From positions 1 through 64,000 of the forward strand of contig CALUTW010000008.1 in NCBI GenBank assembly GCA_944323805.1: a stretch of DNA of 64,000 nucleotides, in the 5' to 3' direction. The translations under genes and the position numbers were made by a program. Under the pieces are notes generated by a model. That model did not search any database and had not been told where the DNA came from. It saw only the letters and a list, made by a program, of their open reading frames with translations. Shown here in pieces: positions 8,236-10,916 of this stretch. Source of the stretch: an uncultured Bacteroidales bacterium (lineage in GTDB: Bacteria > Bacteroidota > Bacteroidia > Bacteroidales > UBA932). Each line of letters opens with the position of its first letter. Position 1 is the first letter of the stretch.

Positions 8236-9483
8236 TTACATGAGATTGAAACGCAGTCCGAATTCAAGCGTAAAATTAAGCGGACGGGAGCTGTAGACAG
8301 TCTCATGGCCGCCTCCGTTGTCAAAGTAGTAGCCTATGCCCGGTTCGACATATACTCCGACCGACGGGACAAAATCGAACTCGACACCGGCCGATGCCCC
8401 TACCGACCACTGGATCTCCTTTACGGAAATCTTCTCCGACCAGTTTTTCCGGACAGCCCCGTTGACAATGTAATCAGTATCGGACCGCCCCGACACGCAC
8501 TTTTCGGCCATGCCTCCGGCTGATATGTAGAGAGACCAGCGTTTCCTCTGCAGAAAATCAAAATTAGCCCTGAAAGGGATGCCCACATAATGGAATCTGC
8601 GTTCAGTCTCATACCGGTTCGATGAAGTACCTGCAGAGATGTCCGAAGACAGCATGGCATATGTCAGACCGGACTCTATGCTCCACCTCTTTCCGAGGCC
8701 GTACCGGACAGAAACGCCGGCCCTTACGGGAGGTCTGTGGCGCACTTCCGTCTTCAGGTCCTCCCCGCCGGAATAAAAGGTCACTTCGCCTGCTTCATAA
8801 TGCCCCAACAGGTCATTGACCACATCCTGACGCATTATTTCAGATGATGACAAAAGAGATGCATAGCCGGAATTGCCGTAGGCAGAGCCGAGTGAATTCG
8901 AGAAATAGATATCCGTACTTATGATGCTTTTCCGTCTGATGTCGGACGGCAGAATGAAAGGCTCTGCTGCCTGCCTGTCCGGTTCCGGCCTGTATCTCTT
9001 CGGAATCTCCTGGACAATGACATCGTTTCCATCAGGACATTGCCCGATATCCCCATTGTCTTCAGTCTCCTGTATTGTATCCTGCACAACAGCCGTATCC
9101 GGCTGCCCGTATTCTTCCTGCATCCCGGCTTTTGCCCTGTCGCCGGCAGGCATGAGCGCCCCCGGTGCCGGGATTTCCTTTACCGCCAGATATCCCTGAT
9201 GATTCAGGCCGTCCTGAATGATTCCGGACTCCGCAATCATCACATGGACATCTTCACGTGCATGGAAAGCAAAGTGAAGCATGAGGACAAGTCCTGCGGC
9301 AGCAGCTGCCGAGGCAACGATGACGGCAATCCGTCTCCGGAGATCATGCCGGCCGGGAACTGCAGAATGACCCGTGCCTTCCGGAGGCAGGGATGCAGAA
9401 ATGCTTTCCCACAAGCCCTCAGGCTCCGGGATACTGCAATCACGCATCCTGTTCCGCAAATCCTCAGTCCAGTCCTGTCCCAT
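8236..9483 (-). CDS. Protein with cytosolic head, one membrane helix and C-terminal beta-barrel; sigma-factor partner
   Basis: The first 48 residues are charged and soluble (LRNRMRDC...PEGLWESISASLPP). Residues about 52-73 form one strong membrane helix (RIAVIVASAAAAAGLVLMLH). A long low-complexity linker, rich in Pro, Asp and Gln, reaches to about 225. The last 190 residues have alternating aromatic beta-strands like the OMP_b-brl families (GVSVRYGLGKRWSIESGLTY, then YVEPGIGYYF) and end LEFGLRFNLM. There is no cleavable signal peptide. It starts 6 bases after the ECF sigma gene, so the two are surely co-transcribed. The head may act as an anti-sigma element, which is an inference from position and layout. 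Confidence 0.7.
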   Translation of the reverse strand: MGQDWTEDLRNRMRDCSIPEPEGLWESISASLPPEGTGHSAVPGRHDLRRRIAVIVASAAAAAGLVLMLHFAFHAREDVHVMIAESGIIQDGLNHQGYLAVKEIPAPGALMPAGDRAKAGMQEEYGQPDTAVVQDTIQETEDNGDIGQCPDGNDVIVQEIPKRYRPEPDRQAAEPFILPSDIRRKSIISTDIYFSNSLGSAYGNSGYASLLSSSEIMRQDVVNDLLGHYEAGEVTFYSGGEDLKTEVRHRPPVRAGVSVRYGLGKRWSIESGLTYAMLSSDISAGTSSNRYETERRFHYVGIPFRANFDFLQRKRWSLYISAGGMAEKCVSGRSDTDYIVNGAVRKNWSEKISVKEIQWSVGASAGVEFDFVPSVGVYVEPGIGYYFDNGGGHETVYSSRPLNFTLEFGLRFNLM

Positions 9484-9489
9484 ATGCTA

Positions 9490-10044
9490 TCATTGAAAAT
9501 GCTCTTTCCTGTATTCCCTTATCATGGATGCAAGCATCGACTTCGCCCTGTGAAGCTGCGATGCGGATGTCCCCTCCGAAATGCCCAGCATCGATGCAAT
9601 CTCCCTGTGGCTTTTCTCTTCAAGCACGTACAGGTTGAATACCGTCCTGTAGCCATCCGGAAGAGCCCTGATCATTTCGAGCAGATCGGTTTCAGGGATT
9701 TCCGACACATCAGCATCCTCCGGCCCGTCAGGCTCCCTCTCATAGTCTTCCGGAAGGCTCTGCATCCGGCACTCCTCCCGGAGATATTTCAGCGATTCGT
9801 TGATGACAATCCTGTTCATCCATGCCCTGAGAGACCCTGCTCCCCTGTATTCGAACCGGCCCATCGAAGAGAATATCTTCAGGAAGCTGGTCTGGAGAAT
9901 ATCCCTGACAGCTTCGTCCGACCCGACATATCTGGAACAGGTTGCGGCAAGATAACCTGCATGACGATGGTACAGATCCGCCATAGCGGACCTGTCCCCT
10001 TTCAGAACTCCTCTGACTGCATGCAAATCTCTGTCATTGGCCAT
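9490..10044 (-). CDS. ECF-type RNA polymerase sigma factor
   Basis: The 184-residue protein has the two-domain ECF layout. Region 2, about residues 22-90, contains YHRHAGYLAATCSRYVG, DILQTSFLKIF and the W-x-x-R-I-V-I-N-E helix. Region 4, about 127-178, has LPDGYRTVFNLYVLEEKSHREIA and a helix-turn-helix ending in QLHRAKSML. The ATG at 10044 was chosen; the longer frame uses a TTG at 10062. It follows the NigD gene by 49 bases and precedes the membrane-barrel gene by 6, which suggests a three-gene operon with its regulator immediately downstream. The regulon is unknown. Confidence 0.93.
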   Translation of the reverse strand: MANDRDLHAVRGVLKGDRSAMADLYHRHAGYLAATCSRYVGSDEAVRDILQTSFLKIFSSMGRFEYRGAGSLRAWMNRIVINESLKYLREECRMQSLPEDYEREPDGPEDADVSEIPETDLLEMIRALPDGYRTVFNLYVLEEKSHREIASMLGISEGTSASQLHRAKSMLASMIREYRKEHFQ

Positions 10045-10093
10045 CGGCTTTCTGCCACTCAATTATCTTGCCATCAGAACAGGCATGCCACTG

Positions 10094-10831
10094 TCACTCA
10101 ATCGTCAGCATGGATTGCTGCCCCGGGTCATTCCCTTCCTGGCCCGATGACAGGGCCTCTCCTGGGGTATATTCGAATACATGGGTCTTCTCTCCGCTGT
10201 ATGAATCCCATTTCAATTTTATCTCCACTTTCTGACCTTCTGTCAGTTCCAGGGCTGACAACTTGAACGCAGCTACGCTCCAGACCCTTGACCCGTAGAC
10301 GTCCCCGGAGGCATCATGACGGAACTCGAGTTCATACGGTTTCTCCGGATCGGGCTGTACGAGATTGACCTTATGGGTCACACCGTTCCCGCTGGAATAT
10401 GTCTCGAAATGAATTGTAAAATATCCGTCCTCAACAACTGTCATCCAGCTGGCCATAATCTCGACCGGGTCATCGCCGTATTCGGCATCCAGATCCGTAC
10501 CGGCGGCAGGCTGGACCATGTCCTTGGTAAGGATCTCCCTGAACCAGTTCACTTTCACTGCCTGGTCATATTCTCCAGCATCTTCGTTGGTCGGGGTATA
10601 ATTGACGAAGGCTCTCTGTTCCTTGTCATACGGAGACCTGTCCATATTGACAGGCAGCAGTGCCACCTCGTCATTGAGCTGCAGATAGAATCCTCCGTCA
10701 TCCAGAGGCTTTACCGTCACGATGGCATTTGCATAATACACGTCAAGGCTCTTGTCCTTAAGGCATGACTGCATGAGCGGGGCTGCCGCAACTATTGCGA
10801 AAACAGCAATCTTTCCAATCAGATTTTTCAT
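10094..10831 (-). CDS. NigD-like lipoprotein
   Basis: This 245-residue protein resembles the NigD family of Bacteroidales. It has a signal peptide and lipobox ending at C23 (APLMQSC), then an N-terminal OB-like part (VYYANAIVTVKPLDDGGFYLQLNDEVALLPVN) and a C-terminal beta domain containing HKVNLVQPDPEKPYELEFRH. NigD was named from the nigrescin locus of Prevotella nigrescens; the function of most members is not known. It is the first gene before the ECF sigma factor and its barrel partner on the same strand. Membrane side cannot be decided from the sequence. Confidence 0.8.
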   Translation of the reverse strand: MKNLIGKIAVFAIVAAAPLMQSCLKDKSLDVYYANAIVTVKPLDDGGFYLQLNDEVALLPVNMDRSPYDKEQRAFVNYTPTNEDAGEYDQAVKVNWFREILTKDMVQPAAGTDLDAEYGDDPVEIMASWMTVVEDGYFTIHFETYSSGNGVTHKVNLVQPDPEKPYELEFRHDASGDVYGSRVWSVAAFKLSALELTEGQKVEIKLKWDSYSGEKTHVFEYTPGEALSSGQEGNDPGQQSMLTIE

Positions 10832-10916
10832 GATATGATATGTATTTAATTGTTTCTGTCCGTATTGTTAAACCACAAAATCGGGAAATCTTGCATCAAC
10901 CACAGGATTTTTTCGC

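Follow-up and report, generated by a model that had tools for sequence, protein, structure and literature searches.

The operon nigD–ECF sigma factor gene–gene for a 415-residue protein, which occupies positions 8236–10831 on the minus strand of the 64,000-nucleotide stretch of uncultured Bacteroidales DNA analysed here (the window), ends with a further member of the Dma/Reo anti-sigma factors, i.e. of a trans-envelope, single-chain design described since 2022–2024 and already published for Dma1–3 of B. thetaiotaomicron (PMC13088901) and for EcfO–Reo of P. vulgatus and B. fragilis (PMC13114119, PMC9308784). Our data document the predicted architecture of this protein, the conservation of the locus, its orthology to a P. 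vulgatus pair and a conserved promoter-like motif. Taken together with what has been published on the homologues, the operon very likely represents a self-regulated outer-membrane stress response of the EcfO–Reo or Das1–Dma1 type (predicted). The sequence-only reading of this DNA, from which the analysis departed, had proposed that one chain joins the cell surface, both membranes and the sigma factor; this proposal is supported, and the same interpretation already stands in the Dma and Reo papers. A recently described design of trans-envelope signalling has in this way been recovered independently from raw sequence.

Table 1. Features of the nigD–sigma–anti-sigma operon, in positions of the window.
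Feature	Position	Strand	Basis
nigD, NigD1/NigD2-family lipoprotein, 245 aa	10094..10831	-	Pfam NigD_N/NigD_C, NCBIfam NF051862
ECF sigma factor, 184 aa, probable ATG start	9490..10044	-	Pfam Sigma70_r2 + r4_2; 52% identity to the P. vulgatus ATCC 8482 orthologue
Dma/Reo-type trans-envelope anti-sigma factor, 415 aa (predicted)	8236..9483	-	domain architecture; reciprocal best match of the P. vulgatus barrel protein; adjoins the sigma gene in the best 80/80 relatives
Cytosolic head, residues 1-48	9340..9483	-	helices 4-14 and 24-31 (AlphaFold2); mean column identity 0.51 over residues 1-31; NF052375 matches 31/73 members
Inner-membrane helix, residues 49-74	9262..9339	-	hydropathy maximum; helix in model; positive-inside in 68/73 members
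Disordered periplasmic tether, residues 75-187	8923..9261	-	low pLDDT; 101-184 residues in all 73 members, sequence unconserved
C-terminal outer-membrane-type beta-barrel, residues 188-415	8239..8922	-	pLDDT mostly >90 from residue 240; OmpA-type Foldseek matches; Pfam OMP_b-brl and OMP_b-brl_2 in 70/73 and 68/73 members
Predicted ECF-type promoter TGCAAGATT-N14-TTTA, 37 nt upstream of the nigD start codon	10869..10895	-	both boxes common to related loci

That a NigD gene precedes the pair of sigma factor and barrel protein, as the sequence-only reading had it, is borne out by the open reading frames of the window and by the Pfam and NCBIfam families of their products. The first gene product matches NigD_N (3.4e-19) and NigD_C (4.2e-30) as well as the NCBIfam entry 'NigD1/NigD2 family lipoprotein' (NF051862; 1.7e-57, above cut-off), and its lipobox (...LMQSC), read directly from the sequence, is a lipoprotein signal, so that it belongs to the NigD1/NigD2 family. 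NigD had been called a lipoprotein of unknown role, which no longer quite holds, since a dma1 mutant of B. thetaiotaomicron hypervesiculates only if NigD1 is present (PMC13088901). The second gene product carries both regions of an ECF sigma factor (Sigma70_r2, 2.4e-10; r4_2, 6.6e-17). Its reading frame can be read from a TTG at 10062, as originally listed, but the gene probably starts at the ATG at 10044, because the product then begins (MANDRDL...) in line with that of the nearest relative, L062 (MANDGEL...). After its TGA stop codon come, in one shared frame, TAG, CAT and then the ATG with which the gene for the 415-residue protein starts. Scans for housekeeping-type promoters and for terminators produced nothing decisive. 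Farther along the same contig, outside the window, a second pair of an ECF sigma factor and a Dma-type protein is found (contig C8, 88.8–90.6 kb; L002, 180–1995), with a sigma factor 41% identical to that of the window and with NigD not detected beside the pair.

The gene directly behind an ECF sigma factor gene is the usual place of an anti-sigma factor, and the position of the barrel protein there was a central point of the sequence-only reading, which is confirmed among relatives. An alignment of the sigma factor was scanned against one genome per species (84,980 species), the nearest records being uncultured Bacteroidales MAGs, and in all of the best 80 loci an open reading frame of the head–helix–barrel type lies directly downstream of the sigma gene, a frequency which, with loci picked by closeness of the sigma factor, is not an unbiased one for all ECF sigma factors. 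Among these 80 loci the barrel frame often overlaps the sigma gene by a few bases, and in a few it is cut by a contig end or a frame break. Such complete adjacency excludes chance.

The predicted anatomy of the 415-residue protein, i.e. a short head, one helix of inner-membrane type, a long linker and a C-terminal barrel, emerges in agreement from hydropathy, Pfam, AlphaFold2 and Foldseek, and matches what had been read from the letters alone. Residues 52–70 are its sole strongly hydrophobic stretch (mean KD 2.27), and OMP_b-brl_2 is matched at residues 242–377 (1.8e-13). The AlphaFold2 model, built from an alignment of 73 sequences, shows helices at residues 4–14, 24–31 and 49–74, mostly low confidence over about 75–187, and the C-terminal barrel, with strands at 188–197 and 253–414, mostly at pLDDT >90; the barrel has about eight strands when counted from the strand list with 343–351 and 357–372 taken as a single broken strand. 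In Foldseek this barrel matches OmpA, OmpW and NspA; a viral fold search returned generic barrels only, and a search of solved structures by sequence gave no match. Net positive charge is higher before than after the membrane helix in 68 of the 73 family members, which places the head in the cytosol. The tether has at least 101 residues in every member; at 0.34 nm per residue its contour length would be no less than about 34 nm, which suffices to cross a periplasm. Anti-sigma factors of the RseA and zinc-binding (ZAS) types also combine a cytosolic sigma-binding head with a single inner-membrane helix; unlike the window protein, however, they end in the periplasm and lack an outer-membrane barrel, and their Pfam families were matched neither by the 415-residue protein nor by its 73 relatives.

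The head carries a conserved motif, W-x3-L-x3-M followed by P-x-PEGLW-x2-I. Its contact with the sigma factor is supported indirectly, by matches of family members to the NCBIfam 'anti-sigma factor' profile NF052375, by a natural sigma–barrel fusion and by the genetics of the homologues (PMC13088901, PMC9308784, PMC13114119). NF052375 matches 31 of the 73 members (best 2.9e-7), and on the window protein itself it gives a weak hit below the cut-off (E 0.028, residues 19–72). The fusion comes from a genome of the same genus (G024; L018, 1495–3078, minus strand), where a single open reading frame of 528 residues combines Sigma-70 regions 2 and 4 with a C-terminal barrel and thus constitutes a natural sigma–Dma fusion like Dma3. 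In Dma3 of B. thetaiotaomicron, which has the same domains, the sigma domain is fused to the anti-sigma factor, whereas the window has two separate genes. A model of the window's sigma factor joined to the head, in which translation continues past the TGA and TAG that separate the genes as a modelling device that does not imply readthrough in the cell, reached a pTM of 0.42 and has a helix running unbroken across the artificial joint; it did not define where the head sits.

P. vulgatus ATCC 8482 has the same sigma–barrel pair with a divergent nigD (locus L106). The two barrel proteins align over nearly their full length at 27% identity, the sigma factors at the identity given in table 1, and the pairs are reciprocal best matches, each genome having two full-length pairs. 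The locus tags used in the literature refer to strain PvCL10. There, M0N98_03760 encodes the anti-sigma factor, which has a C-terminal barrel, 03761 encodes its cognate sigma factor (PMC9308784) and 03762 is one nigD gene of the EcfO regulon (PMC13114119), a neighbourhood that L106 shares; by homology and gene order we therefore take L106 to be ecfO–reo.

Upstream of nigD, at 10895–10869, the window carries TGCAAGATTTCCCGATTTTGTGGTTTA, a copy of a two-box motif that is common to related loci. Boxes containing TGCA and TTTA at a spacing of 13–16 nt occur in 43 of 79 upstream regions, compared with a mean of 0.56 and a maximum of 3 in shuffled sequences, a contrast that is inflated by the kinship of the loci although the boxes are common to different families. 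A stricter form of the motif has five matches in the window's own genome, of which only the copy at the nigD operon precedes a credible gene start. In P. vulgatus, one copy stands 24 nt ahead of ecfO and another 31 nt ahead of a nigD gene at an unlinked site; of its five nigD genes, a further two show imperfect versions when inspected by eye. The P. vulgatus copies agree with the literature, which counts three nigD genes as part of the EcfO regulon. PMC7366714 cites a 2013 report of an EcfO recognition motif, and we therefore do not claim the motif as new. The shared promoter-like motif points to transcription of the operon by the sigma factor that it encodes, and it provides a handle for predicting sigma-factor regulons in uncultured Bacteroidales.

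At rest, the 415-residue protein would use its head to keep the sigma factor bound near the inner membrane, while the disordered tether would span the periplasm and the barrel in the outer membrane would serve as the sensor. A disturbance of the outer membrane would cause this hold to be lost and the sigma factor to be released, which would then transcribe its own operon from the predicted TGCAAG...TTTA promoter before nigD. The output would be NigD plus additional sigma and anti-sigma factor, with the extra anti-sigma factor restoring the off state. Several of these steps are known from homologues and may be expected here by analogy, i.e. anti-sigma action, induction by envelope-active toxins and dependence of NigD on the sigma factor. 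In P. vulgatus, envelope-active toxins induce the sigma/anti-sigma pair with the barrel and, along with it, NigD (PMC9308784), and NigD production requires EcfO (PMC13114119); in B. thetaiotaomicron, loss of Dma1 or Dma2 leads to more vesicle release via the cognate sigma factor, the effect of Dma1 running through NigD1 and that of Dma2 being Das2-dependent (PMC13088901). That the full scheme is valid in this organism we infer, and the same applies to the way in which the signal would break the hold of the head on the sigma factor.

For this last step we tentatively suggest a mechanism that is possible but less likely than not: the anti-sigma factor might be stable only with its barrel inserted by BAM, so that upon a block of BAM or damage to the outer membrane un-inserted or expelled chains would be degraded and the sigma factor freed. 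Two observations fit such a mechanism: a bacteroidetocin that inhibits BamA induces the homologous system (PMC9308784, PMC13114119), and barrel and head are conserved to the same degree. If the mechanism holds, the 415-residue protein would report directly on the capacity for outer-membrane assembly. Alternatively, the barrel may sense a ligand by its loops. It is also conceivable, though rather unlikely, that the barrel is a mere outer-membrane anchor for what would otherwise be an ordinary anti-sigma factor, with sensing located in the tether or carried out at the inner membrane through regulated proteolysis. The long unconserved tether could indeed hold cleavage sites, and proteolysis is what releases RseA and other ordinary anti-sigma factors. 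Across the 73 sequences, however, mean column identity in the barrel (0.49) is about that of the head (0.51) and far from that of the tether (0.20), which exceeds what a passive anchor needs, and the homologous system is induced by toxins acting on the outer membrane as well as by the BamA inhibitor (PMC9308784, PMC13114119).

Two further readings concern the identity of the pair itself. Sigma/anti-sigma pairs of the TonB-dependent FecI/FecR type, serving nutrient uptake, are abundant in Bacteroidales and have the ECF sigma fold in common with the window's pair, and the sigma factor scores 80.5 bits on TIGR02985, which is below the cut-off of 126.4. Yet Pfam finds no FecR domain in the 415-residue protein, none is among the families listed for the 73 relatives, and the immediate neighbours of the operon are, from their translations, a radC-like gene and upp rather than SusC/SusD; with both the FecR domain and SusC/SusD neighbours absent, this assignment is extremely improbable and was rejected. 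Hardly any credence can be given either to the idea that the barrel gene encodes a neighbouring porin with no part in sigma control, whose N-terminal helix, taken alone, could pass as a signal anchor: it is rejected by the adjacency in 80 of 80 loci, and the conserved head motif before the helix, the natural fusion, the matches of family members to an anti-sigma profile and the mutant phenotypes published for homologues (PMC9308784, PMC13088901) likewise stand against it.

As a member of the Dma/Reo group, the window protein shares with EcfO–Reo an ECF sigma factor gene followed by one for an anti-sigma factor that extends from the cytosol across the inner membrane and the periplasm into the outer membrane (predicted here). 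The EcfO regulon includes NigD genes (PMC13114119, PMC9308784), and the window's nigD adjoins the sigma gene; in contrast to P. vulgatus and its Bacteroides relatives, where nigD is divergent, it is here the first gene and runs in the same direction. Unlike P. vulgatus with five NigD genes, moreover, this genome has one, and could thus become a simpler model for studying NigD function. With Das1–Dma1 and Das2–Dma2, which were compared by published description (B. thetaiotaomicron sequences being outside the compared set), the window pair has in common an N-terminal sigma-binding domain (predicted here), one membrane helix, a long disordered tether and a C-terminal barrel, as well as the ECF sigma factor gene adjoining that of the anti-sigma factor, the former being of ECF21 type in B. 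thetaiotaomicron (PMC13088901). Whereas the dma1 mutant of B. thetaiotaomicron shows induction of several genes, nigD1 (bt_4005) among them, the only nigD of the genome studied here lies beside the sigma gene.

Conservation of the gene order across Bacteroidales families, which the sequence-only reading had named as a check of its proposal, was found as well. Of the best 80 loci, 45 have nigD upstream and in the orientation of the sigma gene, and 12, from Bacteroides, Phocaeicola and their relatives, have it divergent; in 23 it was not detected. This shows nigD–sigma–Dma in one direction to be the common arrangement for close relatives that belong neither to Bacteroides nor to Phocaeicola. The 23 loci in which nigD was not detected include all eight from Chryseobacterium (Flavobacteriia; L074, L075, L078, L079, L081, L093, L096 and L097), where a close sigma–Dma pair is present. 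Two loci each contain two sigma–Dma pairs within about 5 kb of one another, in tandem in L094 and convergent in L082. A Bacteroidota-type nigD–sigma–Dma locus also occurs in a record titled Paenibacillus sp. (MAG; L083), which is probably misnamed or contaminated. Furthermore, a genome of the same genus (G003) has seven matches to the Dma protein, and the Dma family has thus probably expanded in some relatives.
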